From: Clostridia bacterium
GTDB taxonomy: Bacteria > Bacillota > Clostridia > Oscillospirales > Acutalibacteraceae
Reading direction: 5' to 3'
DNA: 36,622 bases
Assembly: GCA_017407645.1 (NCBI GenBank)
Contig: JAFQWE010000036.1
Coordinates: forward strand, 1-36,622
Each line of letters starts with the position of its first letter. The stretch's first letter is position 1. Position numbers and translations under genes: made by a program. Shown piece after piece: positions 8,752 to 29,829 of this stretch. The notes beneath the pieces are model-generated. The model searched no databases. It saw only the letters and a list, made by a program, of their open reading frames with translations, and had not been told where the DNA came from.

Positions 8752-9261
8752 TTATCCTACTATCAATCTGAACAAATCAGGTGCAGTATATGCCAAGGTG
8801 GTGATTATAACACCTGCGGTAAGCACCCCTGCCGTTATAATGGGCAAGGTCTTTTTGATAGGCAAATCCAAGAAATTAGCCACCAAGGCGCCCGTCCAGG
8901 CACCAGTGCCGGGAAGAGGAATTGCCACAAACAAATAAAGTCCCCAATAGGTGTATTTGCCAAGCTTTTTGCTACCTTTATCTGCCTTGCGCATAACCCA
9001 GTCCACAACCTTGCCAAGACCTTTTTTGGTGCGCATCCAAGACAGAATACGACGGATAAAAAGCAGTATAACGGGGATTGGAAGCATATTGCCTATAAAG
9101 GATATGGCAAAAGCAACCACCATATTCATATCGGTAAGCCCTGCGTAAAGCATACCGCCGCGTATTTCTGAAATAGGGATGATTGAAAGCATAAAAACTA
9201 CGCCCTCGTCAGAAAACACCTTTGCAAAAAGCTCTGCAATAGCATCGGTCACTTGCGTCAC
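8752..9261 (-). CDS. Small multidrug-export family membrane protein (COG2426)
   Basis: The 169-residue product has several hydrophobic segments and the conserved family sequences IISIPISEIRGG-like (here SIIPISEIRGGMLYA near residue 25) and AIPLPGTGAWTG near residue 113. These define the Sm_multidrug_ex family (PF06695), whose transport role is assumed rather than proven. The frame opens with GTG at 9261, but the AAAGGG site lies very close; the GTG three codons later at 9252 is an alternative start. It follows the dead-sortase gene by 27 bases and is probably co-transcribed with it. Confidence 0.8.
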   Translation of the reverse strand: MTQVTDAIAELFAKVFSDEGVVFMLSIIPISEIRGGMLYAGLTDMNMVVAFAISFIGNMLPIPVILLFIRRILSWMRTKKGLGKVVDWVMRKADKGSKKLGKYTYWGLYLFVAIPLPGTGAWTGALVANFLDLPIKKTLPIITAGVLTAGVIITTLAYTAPDLFRLIVG

Positions 9262-9288: not shown

Positions 9289-10707
9289 TTATTCCTCAAT
9301 ATCGGTTGCCTGCTCGATAAAGCGTTTCGCAACCACAACAACCACCTTGTTTTTGTCCTTACTGTAAGGCGTAACAAGGGTCATAAAATTATCTGTAAGC
9401 TCTACACTGTCAATTGTAGCGCCTGTGTTAACCTTAGATTTTTTAAGTGCAGTTTTAATCATCTCTGCTCTTGCATCGGCATCAAGCTCCTTGAAATTGT
9501 CGGCAAAATTATACTCCTTGCCTTCTTTGTCCACAAGCATAACGCTGATGATATCCCACTTTTCTTCGCCGAAAAGCGCAGAGTCGGTGGTTACCGATTT
9601 AACCTTGCCGATACCCTGAAGGAGTCCCTCAAGCTTGCCGAAAGCCTTGCCGTCGCCCTTGTTGTTACCGTAAATTACAAGGTTAGGATTGATGTTTGCG
9701 GCAGTGTCATAGGCATACTTGATGTATGGGGTGCCGTAGGGGTTGCTTTTGCCGTTAAAGAGGTGGTTTTCGTAATAGTTGGCAGAGTGGCGCGCACCTG
9801 TTACAACGGGAGTATCAATGCCAAGTCCCTCGATTTTAAGCCAACTGATAACGTCGGCATTTTGCTTGTAAAGGGCGGCAAACTTAACCGAATATTCCTC
9901 AGGCATACCTGCATCGGATGCATCCTCAGCGGTAGCGTTGGTATATTTATCCTTTGCCTCGGCAACCGATACCTCGTACATATTGGGGAGCCACCATTTT
10001 GAGTAGCCTACAATTCCCCCTGCAATGCAAATCACAAGCACCGACAAAACGGAAACAAGAGCAATCAAAACGCCCTTCTTTTTGCCTTTTTTCTTAAACT
10101 CTAAAAAATCGTCGTCTTCAATATCTGAAAAAAGGTCAGTCTCTTCCTCTTGTTCAGGCTCGTAATATAGATCTTCCTCTGTCTGAGGCTCTTGCTCAAT
10201 CACAGGCTCCTCGACGGGTTCCTCCTCCTCGACAGGTTCCTCAACGGCAGGCTCTTCAATTATTTCGGCAGGCTTAACGTCCTTTATAACCGCCTGCAAG
10301 TAGGGTAACACGTAGGTTTCGGTCAAAAACTCAAGGGCAGATGCATCCTTATTAACTGCAATGATGCACTGGTCGGCATTTTCGATAATCATACCCGCAA
10401 TATCACTGCCCACTAAAAGAGGCAATGCGCCCTTAGGTAAAACGGCCTCATCCTTGCCCACGATACCAAACTTGCTCCAATCCACAGGCTCAAGAGGTAA
10501 ACCCAAGCCCTTAGAAAGCACCTTTATAAGTTGGGCAATATCGCCCACCGCAACGGTGGTATTGCTGACACTGACCGCATTGGACAGTGCCATCAAAAAC
10601 TCACGGCGGTCCTCACCGGAGGCAACGTTTACCTTGTCAAGAGAAGACAGTATATCCTGCACCCTTTGATTAGGCGCAGTATTGTAATAAATTAGTTCAA
10701 CAGACAT
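9289..10707 (-). CDS. CinA MoCF-like domain fused through an acidic linker and TM helix to a catalytically dead sortase
   Basis: Four parts are visible in 472 residues. Residues 1-142 resemble the N-terminal MoCF domain of CinA: LGLPL near 68, then LPKGALPL, AGMIIE and ETYVLPYL, which match the usual LGLPL / LPNPVGTAPG / E..VLPYL pattern. The GGLGPT-type loop is missing. Residues 143-205 are an acidic EEPVEEE linker. Residues 212-234 are a TM helix. Residues 270-465 align with the neighbouring sortase, but the His in YGHH is Asn (348), the Cys in STC is Pro (447) and the Arg is Lys (461). It therefore cannot act as a cysteine transpeptidase and may be a scaffold or regulator. The ATG has a strong GGAGG site seven bases upstream, 32 bases after the sortase gene. 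The sortase and TM assignments are firm; the CinA relation is inferred from short motifs. Confidence 0.75.
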   Translation of the reverse strand: MSVELIYYNTAPNQRVQDILSSLDKVNVASGEDRREFLMALSNAVSVSNTTVAVGDIAQLIKVLSKGLGLPLEPVDWSKFGIVGKDEAVLPKGALPLLVGSDIAGMIIENADQCIIAVNKDASALEFLTETYVLPYLQAVIKDVKPAEIIEEPAVEEPVEEEEPVEEPVIEQEPQTEEDLYYEPEQEEETDLFSDIEDDDFLEFKKKGKKKGVLIALVSVLSVLVICIAGGIVGYSKWWLPNMYEVSVAEAKDKYTNATAEDASDAGMPEEYSVKFAALYKQNADVISWLKIEGLGIDTPVVTGARHSANYYENHLFNGKSNPYGTPYIKYAYDTAANINPNLVIYGNNKGDGKAFGKLEGLLQGIGKVKSVTTDSALFGEEKWDIISVMLVDKEGKEYNFADNFKELDADARAEMIKTALKKSKVNTGATIDSVELTDNFMTLVTPYSKDKNKVVVVVAKRFIEQATDIEE

Positions 10708-10739
10708 AGCGATACCTCCGTAAAAGTTAAATGGTTAAG

Positions 10740-12005
10740 TTATCCGATGGGAGTAGGCAGAGGTGCAATGGGTGTGGGAGCCTGCATCTCAGCAGATGAG
10801 GTGAAGGGGTTGGTAGGTGTAGGCAACTGCTGACTTGGAGCAGTGCTTGAAGCAGGCGCCTCACTTGATGTGGGAGCCTGACTTGAAACAGGCGCCTCAC
10901 TTGAAGTATTGCTTGAAGTAGGCTCACTTACAACGCTTTCGGGAGCAATTGAGCCGGGAGCGTTAACGTCCTCACGGTCGTAGTCACCTGATACCCAGGT
11001 ATACAGTCCGTCTGCATAGGTGGGCTTAACTCCCTTAAAGTGATCGTACCAAGCCTGAGGATAGATAATCTTGCTGTTGGTGGTTACGTCGCCTGTGTTA
11101 ACTGCAACACTCTCACCGTCGCGCACCTTACGGGCAACAACCACGCAAAGCAGATCGGCATCCTTTACCTCATAGGTGCAGGTGGAAAGGGTAAGAATCT
11201 GGTCGTTGGCGTTAACGTCAACTGCGGTGTTGTAAAGAGAACGGCGGCGGATTTGCTCAATCCAACTCATAAAGTCGGCATCACTGCGGAATGAGGGAGC
11301 GGCAAAATCGAAGAAATAGCCGTTATCATCCATATTGTCGGCGTTGGTTATCATACAGGCAAAAACCTTGTACTGACCGCCTGTACCGTAAATGGTATCA
11401 AAGGTAATAACGGGGTTTTCCTTATAAAAACTGATGGTCTTATATCTGTGAAGCTGTGCAAACATAGAGCCATCCTTCATATGATGACCGTACAGAGTAA
11501 TGTTTTTAGAGTTACCTGCGCGAGAGATAATATCGCGGTAATCGGCAAATATTGCGCCGTAAACGCTCTTTTCCTTAATGCCGTTGTGGTCAAGATAGAA
11601 GTCGTTATTTACAGTCTGATAAATCGGGTTGTCAACGTTGGTGTTGGGAACGGTAATCCAACCCACGCAATCGGTATTTTGCTGCAACAACAACTCATAA
11701 CGGTTAAATACGCCCGTCTGGTCATTTACACTGTCGTCATTGCGGTCGTATTTGTCACGGGCATCGTCAACTATGCTCTTGTTTTGGAAGTATTTGACCA
11801 TAAAGTCACCAACGTAGCAGCTTGACACAACAAGAGATACGATTATTGCGGCAAAAAGAAGTTTGGTCAGAATCTTAGAAAGATTGTCACCCTTCCAAGG
11901 AATAAAGTTTTTAACAGCCTTAACAAAGCCGTTTTCCTTTTTAGTATTAACCGAAGGCTCCTCCTCAAAGACGGCATCCTCTTTAAGTACAAAATCTTCG
12001 TCCAT
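10740..12005 (-). CDS. Class B-like sortase with Ser/Thr/Pro-rich C-terminal tail
   Basis: The 421-residue product has an acidic cytoplasmic N-terminus, one TM helix (about 46-66) and an external sortase domain with all three catalytic residues: His174 in LYGHHMKDGSMF, Cys276 in LTLSTCTYE and Arg292 in VVVARK. It should cleave a sorting signal and attach a protein to the cell wall or another protein; no substrate with a sorting motif is in the window. After the domain comes a tail (about 350-421) with repeated SSEAP, SSQAP and SSTAP units, unusual for a sortase. The ATG has no visible ribosome site. The reading frame continues upstream for 18 codons to a TAG that is the stop of the CinA-type gene. 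Confidence 0.88.
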   Translation of the reverse strand: MDEDFVLKEDAVFEEEPSVNTKKENGFVKAVKNFIPWKGDNLSKILTKLLFAAIIVSLVVSSCYVGDFMVKYFQNKSIVDDARDKYDRNDDSVNDQTGVFNRYELLLQQNTDCVGWITVPNTNVDNPIYQTVNNDFYLDHNGIKEKSVYGAIFADYRDIISRAGNSKNITLYGHHMKDGSMFAQLHRYKTISFYKENPVITFDTIYGTGGQYKVFACMITNADNMDDNGYFFDFAAPSFRSDADFMSWIEQIRRRSLYNTAVDVNANDQILTLSTCTYEVKDADLLCVVVARKVRDGESVAVNTGDVTTNSKIIYPQAWYDHFKGVKPTYADGLYTWVSGDYDREDVNAPGSIAPESVVSEPTSSNTSSEAPVSSQAPTSSEAPASSTAPSQQLPTPTNPFTSSAEMQAPTPIAPLPTPIG

Positions 12006-12059
12006 TATTTCTGTATTAGATACGGTAGCAACAGGCTCTTCAACTATAGGCTTTGCTGC

Positions 12060-13160
12060 CTATTCAGCAACAGCCTCCTCAACGATAATGGGTGCTGTGG
12101 CAGATATCTCGAAATCTTGCACTTCTTCGTCACCGTCAAGCTCAAAATTAAAGTCAAGCTGTTCAGGCTCTTCTGTCTCAGGTCTGATAAACATAGCGGC
12201 ATCAACCTGCTCGTAGGACAGATGTATCTCGTCGGCGGGCAAAATTATACCGTCGTCAACAAGACCTGCTTCGTCGGCACTTTTAACGGCGCTTTCTACG
12301 AAAGAAAGACCGGAATGGGTAGTAGCAGGCTTTTCCTGCTTGCTGTCGTTATCGAATATAATGCCGCCAACGGCAACTGCCTCGCCAATTCCAAGCAAGG
12401 TGCGACGAAGCATATCAAGAGCAACGGTGGCAGAGGTGTTGCGAACGGCTGTGCGGGCATCCTCAACGTCCACGTCAACATTAAGCTCCTTAGTCCACAT
12501 ATTATCCCCATCGCAAAGGCTTACGTAAACAAGTCCGCTTGGCTTATCCTCGTAAGACTCACCTGCAACTCCTGTAATACCTATACCGTAGGTGCAATCG
12601 CTAATACGACGCACGTTGGTAGCCATAGATTCGGCAACCTCACGGCTGACGGTACCCTTTTCATCAATAATTTCTTTGGGCACGCCCAAAACCTTTGACT
12701 TAATATCGGCAGAATAGGCGGCAATGCCCATACTGAACACGTCGGATGAGCCCTTTACGTCGGTAAGACGCTTTGAAAGCAAGCCTGCGGTACAAGACTC
12801 GGCGGTAGCCACAGTTTTGCCCTGCTCTTTAAGCAAATCAACAACAACCTGCTCAATGCCCTTTTCTTCCTCGGTATATATAGCATCACCAAGCGCACTG
12901 CGTACTTTTACGGAAACGGCAAGTGCTTTAAGACGGGCTTCCTCTTCACTTTCGCCATAGGCGGTAAGCACAAATTTAAACTCGCCGTCTTTATTTTTCA
13001 CTGAAAGCGCAATGCCCTTTTCAGAGGCTATATCAGCCTTTAACTCGTCAACAAGAGCGTCGGTAACGTCTGCGGCGTAAAAGATACGCACGCTTTTTGC
13101 CTTACCTTCTGCTGTTTGAGGGATAGGATTCATATTGTTTTCCATCATATCTGCGTTCAT
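12060..13160 (-). CDS. cinA: CinA KH-like plus amidase domain protein with acidic tail
   Basis: The 366-residue product lacks the N-terminal MoCF domain of full CinA. Residues 24-98 fit the KH-like middle domain. Residues 103-257 are the CinA/PncC amidase domain, with TVATAESCTAGLLSKRL near 117 (catalytic Ser in AESCT), YSADIKSKVLGV near 149 and GITGVAG near 194. This domain deamidates nicotinamide mononucleotide in NAD recycling. Residues 258-366 are an acidic, probably disordered tail. The stop is TAG, and the same frame stays open from it into the sortase gene. The ATG has a close AAAGGA site, 24 bases after thiI. The missing MoCF part appears to be in the gene at 9289-10707. Confidence 0.85.
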   Translation of the reverse strand: MNADMMENNMNPIPQTAEGKAKSVRIFYAADVTDALVDELKADIASEKGIALSVKNKDGEFKFVLTAYGESEEEARLKALAVSVKVRSALGDAIYTEEEKGIEQVVVDLLKEQGKTVATAESCTAGLLSKRLTDVKGSSDVFSMGIAAYSADIKSKVLGVPKEIIDEKGTVSREVAESMATNVRRISDCTYGIGITGVAGESYEDKPSGLVYVSLCDGDNMWTKELNVDVDVEDARTAVRNTSATVALDMLRRTLLGIGEAVAVGGIIFDNDSKQEKPATTHSGLSFVESAVKSADEAGLVDDGIILPADEIHLSYEQVDAAMFIRPETEEPEQLDFNFELDGDEEVQDFEISATAPIIVEEAVAE

Positions 13161-13184: not shown

Positions 13185-14354
13185 TCAATCAATAAGCTCA
13201 TATTCAGTGCCTGCAACCGCCTCGTCAATAAGAGCCTGCTCATCAAGAGGTGCTGCGGCGGCATCCACCGCCTCAACGGTAGGACGGGTACGGGGATGGC
13301 GGGGAGTAAATACGGTGCAACAATCCTCATAAGGAAGCACCGATATATCAAAGGTGTCGATTTTTCTTGAAATGCTGACGATTTCTTCTTTATCCATACC
13401 GATAAGGGGACGAAGCACCAGCATATCGGCAGCAGCGTCGGTAACCTGCAAGGCTGGCAAGGTCTGGCTTGCAACCTGACCAACGCTTTCACCCGTTATA
13501 AGCGCACTGCAATGGTCACGCCTTGCAAGACGGGATGAAATCTTCATCATATAGCGGCGCATAATAAGGGTAAAATATTCCTCGGGGCATTTTTCCCCGA
13601 TTAACTCTTGAATTTTAGTAAAGGGTACGGTTGCCATATTGATTGGGCCGCTGTAACGGGCAACCTGACGAAGCAAATCCTTAACCTTTTTAAGAGCAAG
13701 GGGGCCTGTATATGGGGGGCTTGCAAAGTGAATTGCAGTCAGTTCAATGCCGCGCTTTGCCATCATCCAAGCGGCAACGGGACTGTCAATACCGCCTGAA
13801 ATGAGTATGGCGGCACGACCGCCTGTGCCAACAGGCATACCGCCTGCGCCTGACTCCTGACCTGCGCGGACATAGGCGGCAAAATCGCGCACCTCAACCA
13901 CAACGGTAACCTCAGGATTGCGAACGTCCACCTTAAGATATGGGCAACGCTCAAGTATTGCGCCGCCCATTGCGGCAGAAATTTCAGGAGATTTGAGGGG
14001 GAAACGCTTGTCGGCTCGCTTTGCCTCAACCTTAAAGGTTTTTACCCCTTTAAGACGCTCCGCCGCCCAATCGGCACCTCTTGAAAGTATATCTGCCATA
14101 TCCTTTTCGCAAACGGCGGCACGAGAAAATGCCGCAACACCGAAAACTCGGCTAACGCGGTCAAGGGCCTGCTCAAAATCAAAATTATCGTCGCAGGGCT
14201 CAATAAACACAGTTGACTGTGCCTTGCGAATCTGTACGTTGCCAAGAGGCTTAAGTCGACGACGAATATTGCGAATCATTGCATCTTCAAAGTTTGAACG
14301 GTTAAGACCTTTAAGAGCAATTTCACCGTTTTTAACCAAAATAATCTCTTTCAA
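13185..14354 (-). CDS. thiI: tRNA 4-thiouridine synthase ThiI
   Basis: The 389-residue protein has an N-terminal ferredoxin-like region with a THUMP domain (roughly 60-165) and a PP-loop ATPase domain marked by ILISGGIDSPVAAWMM near residue 183. It adenylates uridine 8 of tRNA for sulfur insertion and may also supply sulfur for thiamine synthesis. The C-terminal rhodanese domain of the E. coli enzyme is absent, as is usual in Firmicutes. Sulfur would come from the cysteine desulfurase encoded four bases upstream. The start is TTG, with an AGAAGG ribosome site seven bases away. Confidence 0.93.
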   Translation of the reverse strand: MKEIILVKNGEIALKGLNRSNFEDAMIRNIRRRLKPLGNVQIRKAQSTVFIEPCDDNFDFEQALDRVSRVFGVAAFSRAAVCEKDMADILSRGADWAAERLKGVKTFKVEAKRADKRFPLKSPEISAAMGGAILERCPYLKVDVRNPEVTVVVEVRDFAAYVRAGQESGAGGMPVGTGGRAAILISGGIDSPVAAWMMAKRGIELTAIHFASPPYTGPLALKKVKDLLRQVARYSGPINMATVPFTKIQELIGEKCPEEYFTLIMRRYMMKISSRLARRDHCSALITGESVGQVASQTLPALQVTDAAADMLVLRPLIGMDKEEIVSISRKIDTFDISVLPYEDCCTVFTPRHPRTRPTVEAVDAAAAPLDEQALIDEAVAGTEYELID

Positions 14355-14358
14355 AACT

Positions 14359-15486
14359 TTACCTTCTTCTTACAAGTTTATCTATTCCTTGACCGACAGC
14401 ATCAATCAGAGCATCAATATCTTCCTCGGCGGTGAAGTGGGACATACTAATCCGCACCGCACTGTCGGCAGACTGACGGGATACCCCTTGAGCCTGAAGC
14501 ACGTGACTGCTTTCGCCCTTTGCACAGGCAGAGCCGCTTGACACGTAGATGCCCTTTGACTCAAGCCAGTGAAGCATAACCTCGGAGCGTATGCCTGCCA
14601 CCGAAAGGTTAATTATATAAGGCAGTGCGCCCTCACCCGAATTGACGGTGACACCCTTAAGGGCAGAAAGCCCATTCACGCATTTTTTACGAAGTGTGTC
14701 AATACGGTTAAATTCACCCTGAAGCTCTGGCAGAGCCGATACCGCGGCGCTAAAGCCCTCTATCAATAAGGTGGGTTCGGTACCCGAGCGCAATCCCTTT
14801 TCCTGACCGCCGCCGTAAATAAAGGGTAATATGCGGCACCCGTTTTTAACGAAAAGGGCACCCACACCCTTTGGCCCGTGGATTTTGTGACCGCTCACCG
14901 ACACCAAATCGGCACCCAGTCCCTTTACGGTAAAAGGCAATTTGCCAAAAGCCTGCACACAGTCGGTATGAAAAAGGGCACCACAGCCCGACGACTTAAT
15001 TGCCGCCGCAATTTCGGGAATAGGCATAACGGCACCCGTTTCGTTGTTAACGTACATAACGCTGACAAGAATTGTATCCTCAGTCAGTGCATCGGCAACT
15101 GCCTGGGCAGTGATTACGCCCTCACTGTTAGGCTTAAGATATATAACCTCAAATCCTTCGGCCTCAAGAGCCTTGGCGGCGTTAAGCACCGAATGATGCT
15201 CGATAGCCGTTGTAATAATCCGCTTGCCGCGGCGTTTCATTGCTCTGGCGGCACCAAACAAGGCGGTATTGTTTGCCTCGCTTCCGCAAGAAGTAAAATA
15301 TAACTCCTTTGCCTCGCAACCTAAAAAAGCGGATATGTTTTGACGGGCATTGTCAAGCGCCATCAAAGCCTCTGCTCCCAAAGCGTGCAGGGATGAGGGG
15401 TTGCCAAAGCGCGCCATTGCATTTGACATAGCGGTTATAGCCTCTTGGCACAGAGGGGTTGTTGCGCTGTTATCAAGATAGTGCAT
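14359..15486 (-). CDS. Cysteine desulfurase (NifS/IscS group)
   Basis: The 375-residue product begins MHYLDNSATTPL, the usual N-terminus of the family. The PLP lysine lies in SVSGHKIHGPKG and the persulfide cysteine in SSGSACAKGESSHVL; HTDCVQAFGK is also typical. It converts cysteine to alanine and passes sulfur on, most likely to ThiI encoded directly downstream. The frame can start at an ATG at 15507, but the GGAGG site lies between that codon and the ATG at 15486, which I prefer despite a 12-base gap. It is the first gene of the operon, behind the promoter at 15530-15558. Confidence 0.93.
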   Translation of the reverse strand: MHYLDNSATTPLCQEAITAMSNAMARFGNPSSLHALGAEALMALDNARQNISAFLGCEAKELYFTSCGSEANNTALFGAARAMKRRGKRIITTAIEHHSVLNAAKALEAEGFEVIYLKPNSEGVITAQAVADALTEDTILVSVMYVNNETGAVMPIPEIAAAIKSSGCGALFHTDCVQAFGKLPFTVKGLGADLVSVSGHKIHGPKGVGALFVKNGCRILPFIYGGGQEKGLRSGTEPTLLIEGFSAAVSALPELQGEFNRIDTLRKKCVNGLSALKGVTVNSGEGALPYIINLSVAGIRSEVMLHWLESKGIYVSSGSACAKGESSHVLQAQGVSRQSADSAVRISMSHFTAEEDIDALIDAVGQGIDKLVRRR

Positions 15487-15529
15487 AAAAGGGGCATACC
15501 TCCGCATATTAGATAGTTATACAAAATAT

Positions 15530-22755: not shown

Positions 22756-23415
22756 TTATTGTTGTTGTTTATAAATTTTTCTTACTTTAAAAAATCCAAT
22801 TACTTGACATATAAACGAATATACCGAGAAAATTAAATATGTAGCTTGCTCGGGAGACTCTTTTAACATTACAACATACAAAATGATGTTGATAACACTG
22901 CTTATTATCATAAGCCAAGTATACTCCACAAAGGCAAACATTGTAAGAAATGAAGTTAATATTACCATAAGGGTTATTGCGTTGTCAAGCAAAGCATAGT
23001 CTGAGCTAAACTGCTTGCGCACATATTGAATTAAAGCCAAAACAATCACAAACGCCACGCAAATAAAAAATCGGTATTTATTGCTCATTTTGCGAAAGAC
23101 GGTAGTCTCTTTCCACGAATTGCGATTCCACATAACAAAGGTGATAATTTGGATAGGACAAGAGACAAATAAGGCACTAAACGCCATACCGTAAAGGCCG
23201 TAATAAAGGTAAACAACAAAATACAAAATTGAGTTGATACCGCCGATTAAGGCGTGATATCGGTTGGCTTTGGATTGTAAAAGCGCAATGGTTAAAGAAA
23301 CAAACAAGGGGCTGATACGCCAAAAGGATTGTTTAAATATTATTGCTGCAACAACTATTGCAATAGCTGAACCAACCATTAAGGCAGACATAAGAATTTT
23401 TTTAATTTTATTCAT
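22756..23415 (-). CDS. pnuC: PnuC-family transporter
   Basis: The product of about 219 residues has six or seven hydrophobic helices. The sequence RYHALIGGINSILYFVVYL, then WNRNSW, then DNAITLMVILTSFL and VEYTWLMI follow the pattern of PnuC proteins, which move nicotinamide riboside or related vitamins across the membrane by facilitated diffusion. It is embedded within a carbohydrate operon, four bases after the upstream gene and 11 before the next, so it is certainly co-transcribed. That context is unusual and the substrate may differ. The ribosome site is weak, suggesting translational coupling; the frame could also open with TTG at 23427. Confidence 0.7.
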   Translation of the reverse strand: MNKIKKILMSALMVGSAIAIVVAAIIFKQSFWRISPLFVSLTIALLQSKANRYHALIGGINSILYFVVYLYYGLYGMAFSALFVSCPIQIITFVMWNRNSWKETTVFRKMSNKYRFFICVAFVIVLALIQYVRKQFSSDYALLDNAITLMVILTSFLTMFAFVEYTWLMIISSVINIILYVVMLKESPEQATYLIFSVYSFICQVIGFFKVRKIYKQQQ

Positions 23416-23419
23416 AGAC

Positions 23420-24898
23420 TTATTCAAACCTCATTGCATATATTTCAGCATCGCGCATAGTGAATCTGAAGCAAACTGCTTTGCCTTTCAAATCACCCAA
23501 AGGTTTTTCAAAATCTATTACTCTGTCAAGGGTGTCACCAAAAATTTCACAGGTACTGTATCCGTCTATAGCTTTACCCGTCTCATCCAAAACATCAAGG
23601 TAAATGCTTCCTCTTGCAGACGTGCGGAAGTTCAATTTTAAGGTGCTTGCATCAAATTGAAACACCGGCGTTTGCAGAGTTTTGCCCGAATAATCGGCTT
23701 TTATTGATGCAAATCCGTCGCGACGGTATACGTAGCGCACAAGTTGAACTTTTTCAGGCATCCAGTGGTGGTTAAAAACATACACCGACAACTCGTTGGG
23801 CTCGCCGTCAAAATTGCTTGAGGTTTCTACAACACCGCCGATAGCAGGATAGCAGTCACCGTATACCCAGTTGCCCTCATATTCTATACCGGGAGTGATG
23901 CAAGCCTCGTCAAATCGGTACCACTTATAGTTGTCACGAGAACTCATAAACACACAATCGGTAAGAACCAATCCATAGCGCTGATTAACGCCCCCGATAT
24001 TAGGCTCGGTTGTCATTCGCTTTTTGCGTCGGTCCGCACCGCATAGACGGTCATAATTGGCAGTCCATTTTTTGCGCTCAACGTATCGGGTGGGGAAGCC
24101 AATATAATAACGGGTATCAAAGGGATATGCCATAACACAGTTGGTATACAGAGGATAATCCTCGCGGCCGCCAAAATCCAACGGTACGGGAGTAGACCAG
24201 TTAAAGAAATCCTCTGATTCCGATACCATAATACCCCTTACATTTGTTTCGTTGAAAACCGAGTCGGGTTGTTCAGGCTTTTTATTAAAACACCTAAAAT
24301 AGCAGTAGTATTTGTTGGTGTGGGGATTCCAATGCAACGAGTTTTGCGAGTCGTAGTCATAGCCTTGAGACACAACGCTGTAGTTTTCAAAATGAATCCC
24401 GTCGGCTGATACCATACATATCAGGCCTTTTCTTGCCTTGTTAGGATCATCGTTTACAAACCCCGTCACGTCACCGCAAGACATAAGGGCTTTGTAGCGA
24501 TGCTGAGGTAAACAATCGGGGTTTTCATCCTTCATAACAACAATATTATCATAAATTCCGGTCATAATTATATTGTTGTTTGTGTTGCCGCGAAACTCAC
24601 ACATATTAAGATTGGGGCGCTCCCAATGAATGCCATCCTTACTCTCGGCATAGCATACGTTAATACCCTCGGTGTAGCTTTTGTCAAAAAATGACCATGT
24701 TTCATAATACATACGGTAAAATCCGTCGTCTTTTACGATGGTAAAAAAGTCGTTTGAATCGCCATCCCACGGTTGATCAAACAGCATAACAACATCTTTT
24801 TTCTCAGGCTTGTTGACAGATAAAACAGCGTCGGTGTTTTGTCTGTCAATCATATAGTCATCCCAAAAAGGAACCAAGCCTTTTTCAATTTTTATCAT
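23420..24898 (-). CDS. Beta-propeller glycoside hydrolase-like protein (GH32/GH43 fold)
   Basis: The 492-residue protein contains repeated blade-like sequences: DGFYRMYYETW, VCYAESKDGIHWERP, GLICMVSADGIHFE, NKYYCYFRCF and GIMVSESEDFFNWS. These are the strand pattern of five-bladed propellers of the GH32/43/68 groups. Candidate acidic residues lie in PFWDDYMID near the N-terminus and in EGNWVYGDCYP. A C-terminal beta-sandwich from about 395 completes the layout. No signal peptide is seen. The family cannot be fixed from the sequence. It is the first gene of the operon, with an AAAGGAG site eight bases before the ATG, divergent from the AraC regulator. Confidence 0.7.
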   Translation of the reverse strand: MIKIEKGLVPFWDDYMIDRQNTDAVLSVNKPEKKDVVMLFDQPWDGDSNDFFTIVKDDGFYRMYYETWSFFDKSYTEGINVCYAESKDGIHWERPNLNMCEFRGNTNNNIIMTGIYDNIVVMKDENPDCLPQHRYKALMSCGDVTGFVNDDPNKARKGLICMVSADGIHFENYSVVSQGYDYDSQNSLHWNPHTNKYYCYFRCFNKKPEQPDSVFNETNVRGIMVSESEDFFNWSTPVPLDFGGREDYPLYTNCVMAYPFDTRYYIGFPTRYVERKKWTANYDRLCGADRRKKRMTTEPNIGGVNQRYGLVLTDCVFMSSRDNYKWYRFDEACITPGIEYEGNWVYGDCYPAIGGVVETSSNFDGEPNELSVYVFNHHWMPEKVQLVRYVYRRDGFASIKADYSGKTLQTPVFQFDASTLKLNFRTSARGSIYLDVLDETGKAIDGYSTCEIFGDTLDRVIDFEKPLGDLKGKAVCFRFTMRDAEIYAMRFE

Positions 24899-28968: not shown

Positions 28969-29829
28969 CTACACAGATTGATTAACTTTTCTGCTTTTGC
29001 CGGGTGATACACCGCAAACAGATTTATAACTGCGGCAAAAATAATTGGCACCCTCAAATCCGCACATTTCGGCAATTTCAGATATGCTTTTGTCGGTGTT
29101 TTGAAGCAAGGTGTCTGCAACGGTTATGCGGTAATCACGCAGATATTGCATAACTGTTTTTTCGGTGACGGCTTTGAAAACTCGGCAAAAATAATGCTTA
29201 CTCACTCCGCAAAGGTGCGCCAGCTCTTCAAGGGTGACGTTGGCAGAGTAGTTATCGCGAATGTGACGGAGCGCCGGCTCAATCAGTGAGTAGGAATGCA
29301 GAATGTCACTTCTGACCGAATAATTTACGTCATCCGAAATGCCGTTTCGCAGCAAATAAACAAAAACCTGCGTCATCAACGCGCGGATATAAGCGTTGCA
29401 GCCCGTTCTTTGCTGAGCGTACTCTTTGCCCGCAAGCATCAAAATATCGTACAAATATTTATTGCCGCTAAAATGATTGGTAAAGGAATTTTTCTGTGCA
29501 ATTATTATGTTGCGCAAATCCAATTCGTCGGGTGAAACCTGTTGCATATAATCCAGCGGCACCATAAAAAGATGGTATTTGCCCTTTTCAGCTTCTTCGC
29601 CGCATTTTACCGTAGCGTGAAACTCATAAGGGTTGATTACAACCACGTCACCCGCTTTAACGTTAATTGTCTGGTTTTCTATAAGCAGAGTGGCAGTGCC
29701 CTCATAAAAGCACTTTATCTCGACGTCTTCGTGTAAGGCGCTGCGCATAGCATTGATATCGTTAATCTGCGCTATTCGGTCGGGGTGCACACGAATTTGA
29801 TTGCCCAAATTCTTTTCCAAAATAACCAT
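28969..29829 (-). CDS. AraC-family transcriptional regulator
   Basis: The 286-residue product has a cupin domain (NVKAGDVVVINPYEFHA) and a C-terminal double helix-turn-helix (VTLEELAHLCGVSKHYFCR and SISEIAEMCGFEGANYFCR). It is likely to control the SGNH-amidohydrolase-Gfo/Idh genes downstream in the same transcript. The AAAGGA site touches the ATG at 29829; the TTG at 29820 is better spaced and may be the real start. The stop is TAG, rare in this window, followed by GAG and TAA in frame. Confidence 0.88.
   Translation of the reverse strand: MVILEKNLGNQIRVHPDRIAQINDINAMRSALHEDVEIKCFYEGTATLLIENQTINVKAGDVVVINPYEFHATVKCGEEAEKGKYHLFMVPLDYMQQVSPDELDLRNIIIAQKNSFTNHFSGNKYLYDILMLAGKEYAQQRTGCNAYIRALMTQVFVYLLRNGISDDVNYSVRSDILHSYSLIEPALRHIRDNYSANVTLEELAHLCGVSKHYFCRVFKAVTEKTVMQYLRDYRITVADTLLQNTDKSISEIAEMCGFEGANYFCRSYKSVCGVSPGKSRKVNQSV

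Follow-up and report, generated by a model that had tools for sequence, protein, structure and literature searches.

The stretch of DNA analyzed here, referred to as the window, is 36,622 nucleotides long and is one contig (C21) of the 1.36-Mb, 41-contig, 71%-complete genome of a Clostridia bacterium. On its minus strand lie, in order, genes for a NifS-like protein, ThiI, the amidase part of CinA, a sortase, a second sortase-like protein (gene 2) and a PF06695 membrane protein, and it is the combination of CinA-type domains with membrane-anchored sortases that concerns us. Three open reading frames (ORFs) that an initial annotation had placed at 12060-13160, 10740-12005 and 9289-10707, all on the minus strand, are indeed there. 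The first two, which share a frame, are called gene 1 below. The features, including a transmembrane (TM) helix in each gene, are as follows.

12060..13160, minus strand: cytoplasmic part of gene 1, with a weak KH domain, a complete CinA/PncC amidase and an acidic tail, MoCF absent (from domain profiles and 11 amidase positions)
12060..12062, minus strand: in-frame TAG interrupting the CinA-sortase frame (from frame reading)
12006..12059, minus strand: 18 linker codons, AAKPIVEEPVATVSNTEI, leading from the TAG to the first ATG in the sortase ORF (from frame reading)
10740..12005, minus strand: membrane and outer part of gene 1, with a TM helix, class B sortase and Ser/Thr/Pro-rich C-terminal tail (from profiles, residues and sortase trees)
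10270..10707, minus strand: degenerate MoCF (COG1058-like) domain of gene 2 (from profile-profile comparison, with single-sequence searches against it)
10087..10278, minus strand: acidic linker of gene 2, residues 144-207
9289..10065, minus strand: TM helix (residues 215-233) and pseudo-sortase B domain of gene 2, SpoIID absent
8752..9261, minus strand: small multi-drug export-like membrane protein (PF06695), neighbor of gene 2
13185..14354, minus strand: ThiI, conserved neighbor
14359..15507, minus strand: NifS-like class V aminotransferase, conserved neighbor

For comparison, 80 stretches from relatives were domain-mapped with purpose-built hidden Markov models (HMMs); 65 of these, from 63 genomes, belong to the same family, and because they were chosen partly for long CinA frames, proportions among these family loci are not those of a random sample. 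Caproiciproducens galactitolivorans, Neglectibacter and Candidatus Acutalibacter are among the named matches, and we therefore take the family to be, presumably, GTDB Acutalibacteraceae. CinA is present in 134 of 150 sampled family genomes, and its region was examined in 62 of the 134, counting the window; these include every one of the 38 genomes whose open frame exceeds 560 residues.

The product of 12060-13160 matches the CinA amidase family PF02464 in Pfam (E 1.4e-45) and keeps 11 of the 11 amidase positions checked, namely those listed in the available part of PMC3855486 plus one further Arg. It is not a full-length CinA: MoCF is absent, KH is below the cut-off (PF18146, 22.6 bits vs. 27), and PRK00549 is matched at 187 bits vs. 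379. The ORF at 10740-12005 encodes the intact sortase that the initial annotation had recognized between its two CinA-bearing genes; the protein, of class B, exceeds the TIGR03064 cut-off (172.4 bits vs. 153.75), has a TM helix at residues 45-63 and keeps the catalytic His, Cys, and Arg. The single TAG at 12060-12062 is all that separates the two ORFs: beyond it the frame stays open for more than 30 codons, and the 18 codons AAKPIVEEPVATVSNTEI lead to the sortase ATG. In both of the sortase trees that were built, the window's intact sortase pairs with a MoCF-sortase of G001, a genome of the same genus (starred, 97 and 98), and the next neighbor is the CinA-fused sortase L123 (99, starred, in one tree and 92 in the other), inside a mostly fused set. 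Given this grouping with fused sortases, the most likely ancestor of gene 1 (13160-10740) is a CinA-linker-TM-sortase B fusion. Both are quick trees, constructed without rows missing a catalytic column (except L051 gene 2 in the first) and without L087, L088, and L090; the second also leaves aside L084, L130, and all dead sortases, dead meaning throughout that His or Cys is lost.

The TAG is either a real mutation or an assembly error. A further account is that the stop is functional, either keeping the CinA part and the sortase apart by design as two products or fixing their ratio through readthrough. The window gene at 28969-29829 also ends in TAG, with another stop one codon later, which suggests that the standard code is in use, and the sortase ORF does have its ATG 18 codons beyond the interrupting TAG. 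Nevertheless, no Shine-Dalgarno-like sequence was seen by eye before that ATG (gene 2 has GGAGG), and none of the 38 fused frames in family relatives contains a stop. We consider a functional stop improbable; a single-base assembly error or a recent mutation is the simpler account. A genome that reads TAG as sense was set aside on account of the ordinary stop at 28969-29829. Elsewhere, G045 has a TAA inside a 514-codon frame.

Gene 2 (9289-10707) encodes an N-terminal domain of ~142 residues, an acidic linker of 64 amino acids (34% Glu), one TM helix identified by hydropathy at residues 215-233, with net positive charge before the helix, and a sortase B-like domain. The domains and topology signals of both genes agree with the shared plan that had been proposed for them: a cytoplasmic CinA part, an acidic linker, a TM helix, and an external sortase fold. 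The sortase domain of gene 2 matches TIGR03064 with an E value of 2.6e-15 at 56.4 bits, below the cut-off of 153.75, and in its catalytic columns His is replaced by Asn, Cys by Pro, and Arg by Lys. It is thus to be read as a homolog without catalytic residues, predicted to be dead, and in the tree it groups with dead, mostly SpoIID-fused sortases. AlphaFold models the sortase fold and the TM helix for the most part with good confidence. No SpoIID domain was matched in the window's gene 2.

The N-terminal domain is more divergent. Scanned as a single sequence with Pfam and NCBIfam, residues 1-142 show no MoCF match, and among 16 gene 2-type N-domains scanned singly with Pfam none was significant, one matching PF00994 at E 0.14. 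As a profile, however, the 16 sequences align with nine ordinary CinA MoCF domains over 147 columns (hhalign, probability 97.7%, E 1.5e-12; control against the CinA amidase, 0.1%). Against all solved structures, the best match of the profile is a CinA (6mr3, E 1.5e-4), followed by a COG1058 protein (3kbq, E 0.15) and the unrelated 1f1m (E 0.2); gephyrin appears only at E 1.5 and above. The motif columns TGGLGPTxDD and PGPPxE are lost in the window's domain and in the other 15 aligned. The profiles thus support a degenerate MoCF homolog in residues 1-142, much as the initial annotation had supposed. An iterated HMM of the domain ("Ndom") drifted to ordinary MoCF and is not used as proof of homology, for which we rely on hhalign and the structure search; similarly, a profile search of 150 family genomes, with 104 matching, also picks up ordinary CinA MoCF and is not taken to show how often gene 2 occurs.

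A separate MoCF-like gene is found in 28 of the 65 family loci, and five further loci, outside that count, hold a degenerate MoCF inside the CinA ORF itself. The initial annotation had taken gene 2 to be one-half of a single CinA split in two, its MoCF half having moved to a second sortase gene. In the window, MoCF-like and KH-amidase domains do lie on different proteins, and, as had been asked of the split, no complete ordinary cinA turned up elsewhere, neither a second CinA nor a PF00994 match being found in the 71%-complete genome. Yet in 22 of the 28 loci where the MoCF-like gene stands apart, a CinA that has retained MoCF and amidase is present too (sortase-fused in, e.g., G011 and G018), the second gene carries a degenerate amidase too in several genomes, and the window's MoCF-like domain lacks the conserved motifs. 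This coexistence largely refutes the split, which we regard as very improbable. Gene 2 is therefore best described as a degenerate pseudo-paralog, not the missing half, and the window's CinA has separately lost its own MoCF.

The surroundings of the locus are shared with relatives. ThiI lies beside CinA in 53 of the 61 CinA-holding family loci, and in 48 of the 61 a sortase is present in the stretch as well, so the gene order is largely kept. PF06695 adjoins gene 2 in 9 of the 28 family loci with a separate gene of that kind, and also in L155, one of 80 named CinA loci from many phyla. Rfam gave no match in the window, and PADLOC, consulted on the idea of a defense system, gave none for the four proteins submitted.

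Fusion of CinA to a sortase is frequent in the family. The CinA amidase and a sortase share one frame in at least 38 of the 134 CinA-bearing family genomes, a lower bound. Outside the family, one-frame fusions occur in G027 and G038, and when 295 genomes from across the order (258 of them with CinA) were searched, one frame of more than 560 residues (G171, 604) stood among the matches listed outside the family. Of the 80 named loci, ten have a sortase within the stretch, three of them (L155, L160, L175) as one-frame fusions. G038, from another family, resembles the window in having an amidase-sortase fusion that lacks MoCF; a SpoIID gene follows it (L084:7202-9922). The 26 rows of active CinA-fused sortases (window and G001 included) do not form one clade when tested against the other 28 (approximately unbiased [AU] test, p 0.0003), the tested group having been named with knowledge of an earlier tree. 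CinA and sortase therefore appear, from these sequences, to have been joined or separated more than once.

Such joining could be neutral: adjacent cinA and sortase B genes would lose the intervening stop now and then, the fusion being tolerated since the N terminus of the sortase is cytoplasmic, with CinA and sortase working independently. Adjacency without fusion is indeed common (e.g., L053-L056, L059, L064, L070, L125, L129, L130), the topology makes joining harmless, and G005 looks like a secondary split in the sortase tree. Set against this are the recurrence of joining or fission, the fusion of dead sortase-SpoIID proteins as well, and the retention in 28 of the 65 family loci of a degenerate CinA-type gene, a kept pseudoenzyme that neutral joining leaves unexplained. 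Conservation within the fusions also speaks against it. The 40 fused amidases (38 from the family, 2 others) show no change at any of the 11 positions checked; among 34 unfused amidases, four cells differ, at three positions. Of 32 MoCF domains detected in sortase fusions (G001 included), 29 keep the first two Gly of TGGLG and 29 the Glu of PGPPxE, the other checked motif positions being kept in 22 to 31. Neutral fusion is the main alternative to a complex of the two proteins and the most credible of the rivals, although we judge it unlikely.

The sortases divide according to what they are joined to. Of 20 SpoIID-fused sortases, 19 are dead, against 10 of the 63 others; the window is counted here (Fisher p 1.3e-10, with kinship uncorrected). 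In the 35 complete family cases in which CinA and a sortase are joined, the sortase is active in 23 and dead in 12; among CinA-sortase fusions without SpoIID, His and Cys are both kept in 22 of 28 complete proteins, with 3 more cut by contig ends. Where the MoCF-like gene is separate, it has a sortase domain in 12 of 28 loci, 11 of them dead, while the twelfth (G001) lacks the catalytic Cys and has a gap at the His column; it carries SpoIID in the same protein in 14 of 28, and 11 of these 14 have a dead sortase. In ten family loci (G018, G048, G058, G061, G071, G085, G105, G107, G124, G162), a MoCF-KH-amidase-active sortase fusion is followed by a degenerate MoCF-dead sortase-SpoIID protein, the catalytic Arg of the first sortase being Lys in G124. 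Six loci (L069, L103, L104, L105, L117, L122) have CinA-dead sortase-SpoIID in one protein, and in the five whose upstream stretch is covered (L069, L103, L105, L117, L122) a separate active sortase lies between NifS and ThiI. The same holds for L095 and L107, where CinA is fused to a dead sortase without SpoIID, and the named locus L160 has the CinA-dead sortase-SpoIID type of layout with a separate sortase likewise, as judged by layout and not by residues.

In some relatives, the separate MoCF-like gene has no sortase domain and can hold a degenerate MoCF, acidic linker, degenerate amidase, TM helix, and SpoIID. Aligned with the CinA amidase by hhalign, 11 of the degenerate amidase stretches gave a probability of 95.6 and an E value of 1.3e-8 (control 0.1). 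Because a degenerate MoCF and a degenerate amidase occur together in this sortase-less partner, the partner protein has the character of a pseudo-CinA. The SpoIID assignment of relatives' gene 2 comes from Pfam PF08486, above the cut-off in L067, L119, and L053 and below it in L069; TIGR02669 is matched in the L067 gene 2. All 13 readable proteins with a sortase domain have SpoIID in canonical order, while of the 9 readable ones without a sortase domain 8 (all but L187) show a circular permutation; in 8 further proteins with a sortase and 1 without, the order could not be read from the motifs. In the permuted form, a GYGHGVGMSQ-like segment precedes an EALKAQ-like segment; the loci are L053 (8145-10535), L054, L058, L059, L068, L132, L133, and L137, of which L054 has no detected MoCF-like domain and L058 has it on a separate gene. 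One protein, L098:1158-4784, combines degenerate MoCF, KH, amidase, active sortase, and SpoIID. The window's own genome has an ordinary SpoIID gene elsewhere. On its contig C33 (L212:1402-2766), a partial SpoIID match is followed by repeats that, by eye, look to be of the peptidoglycan-binding type. With regard to sporulation, SpoIVA was not matched in the genome, from which, at 71% completeness, we draw no conclusion.

A comparison within the genus is informative as to what is maintained. G001 (L051:3669-5915) encodes a MoCF-linker-TM-active sortase protein (PF00994, 36 bits, above the cut-off), with no amidase match in the 65%-complete genome. The window, with KH-amidase and no MoCF, shows the reverse loss, and both have gene 2. 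These opposite losses suggest that selection apparently holds a membrane pair with some CinA-type domain on each arm and not NMN (nicotinamide mononucleotide) deamidation as such. The missing part of either incomplete genome (window 71%, G001 65%) could change this reading. The comparison also bears on the idea that fusion only tethers nucleotide salvage to the membrane, placing CinA near a source of NMN or ADP-ribose with the sortase as anchor. The amidase residues kept in all 40 fusions fit that idea, as does a PnuC-type NMN transporter (PF04973, E 1.3e-16) at 22756-23427 on the minus strand, ~10 kb from the CinA gene. However, a bare anchor would not need the His and Cys kept in 22 of the 28 complete CinA fusions without SpoIID, and G001 has MoCF-TM-sortase with no amidase found. 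We hold tethering to be quite unlikely, only slightly less so than a functional TAG.

Collectively, the domains, topology signals, residue states, synteny, and repeated fusion or fission are read directly from the genomes, and from them we infer a complex, its coupling, and possible regulation by nucleotides. The reading we prefer, for which the chances seem to us evenly balanced, is that the CinA-sortase and its pseudo-CinA partner would form a transmembrane complex holding a sortase, a pseudo-sortase, and, in relatives, often SpoIID. A two-component membrane complex had been suggested from the window alone, and the comparison with relatives strengthens that suggestion. Gene 1 would supply the NMN-amidase part in the cytoplasm and, beyond an acidic linker and a single TM helix, a predicted active sortase outside; gene 2 would be the partner, in which a degenerate CinA-type MoCF is followed by a linker, a TM helix, and a sortase that is dead. 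Both proteins, each with a single membrane pass, are most likely subunits of one complex. In the cytoplasm, CinA would pair with pseudo-CinA like the chains of a CinA dimer. This hetero-oligomer would bring the two TM arms together, so that sortase and pseudo-sortase, with SpoIID where present, could pair outside. Surface-protein anchoring and local peptidoglycan cutting would thereby happen together, and binding of nucleotides of the nicotinamide adenine dinucleotide (NAD) cycle to the CinA part may tune the complex. The mechanism would not require SpoIID. A more ambitious version, in which CinA and its dead twin would read NAD-cycle nucleotides (NMN from DNA ligase, ADP-ribose) and drive the sortase/pseudo-sortase and SpoIID, coupling the state of replication and repair to surface anchoring and wall opening, is offered tentatively, and we think it somewhat less probable even than neutral fusion.

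Several observations weigh against a paired complex. The L098 protein is the sole SpoIID-fused sortase of the 20 with intact catalytic residues, and the sortase is dead in six complete CinA-sortase fusions that lack SpoIID, one of which (L106) is cut by the contig. Three loci in which CinA is fused to a dead sortase without SpoIID (L052, L060, L113) lack an active sortase within the stretch, a result not foreseen by the pairing model. Moreover, 8 of the 61 CinA-holding family loci (L066, L071, L072, L099, L124, L126-L128) have no sortase in the stretch at all, many others have theirs unfused, and 37 of the 65 family loci have no detected separate MoCF-like gene. Domain content varies strongly: in the window, gene 1 is without MoCF and gene 2 without SpoIID, and in G001 the amidase was not found. 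AlphaFold confidence for the gene 2 N-domain is low (block means 27-67), and the pseudo-amidase profile did not find CinA among solved structures, so that the homology of the degenerate amidase rests on hhalign and weak HMM matches.

CinA-sortase fusions accompanied by a dead copy and a wall-cutting domain point to an envelope machine that appears to be undescribed. Titles and abstract openings in the open-licence literature contained nothing on a CinA-sortase fusion, a SpoIID-sortase, or sortase pseudoenzymes of this kind, and the profile libraries searched had no entry for an NMN/ADP-ribose enzyme fused to a surface transpeptidase with matching dead copies. The system would give a way, open to experiment, by which nucleotide state in the cytoplasm could reach protein anchoring in the cell wall. 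It suggests that the widespread CinA does more than recycle NAD, and the cell-wall proteins of a large group of gut bacteria would come to include sortase pseudoenzymes and a circularly permuted SpoIID. Sortase anchoring matters in the family, as exemplified in the available part of PMC12997984 by the predicted LPxTG-anchored scaffoldin of Limousia.

Each component has a characterized counterpart. The window amidase, with all its checked positions, resembles CinA/PncC, and many fused relatives have the full MoCF-KH-NMN amidase order. In Thermus thermophilus, CinA forms an asymmetric dimer whose MoCF (COG1058) domains rotate and touch the KH domain of the partner chain, and the available part of that account describes no membrane anchor (PMC4246079); in contrast, CinA is here joined via a TM helix to a sortase, a degenerate CinA-type protein is often alongside, and the window copy is without MoCF. 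CinA domains are known to be fused occasionally to other domains, cases set aside in PMC3855486, the main text of which, so far as available, makes no mention of sortase. The intact sortase resembles class B enzymes (TIGR03064) in its TM anchor, family match, and catalytic His, Cys, and Arg, but differs in its acidic cytoplasmic extension, which bears CinA in relatives, and in the catalytically dead homolog that adjoins it. Relatives' gene 2 resembles SpoIID/LytB lytic transglycosylases, of which Bacillus subtilis SpoIID has an essential Glu according to the available part of PMC6635528, by virtue of its above-cut-off PF08486 matches. Unlike those enzymes, the relatives' domain is fused to a pseudo-sortase and pseudo-CinA and is mostly permuted where the sortase is missing, and it is absent from gene 2 of the window. 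Finally, in Glp/GlpR of the Corynebacteriales, a MoCF-containing MoeA has been repurposed as a cytoplasmic scaffold on a membrane protein in cell division, and the GlpR receptor has an acidic disordered region (PMC10522489). That system employs another MoCF family, a separate receptor, and binding to FtsZ, with no sortase or SpoIID described in the available part of the source, and the gene 2 N-domain is not of MoeA type, its best solved-structure matches being CinA and COG1058, with gephyrin at E ≥1.5. The likeness to the CinA-sortase locus is thus one of principle only.

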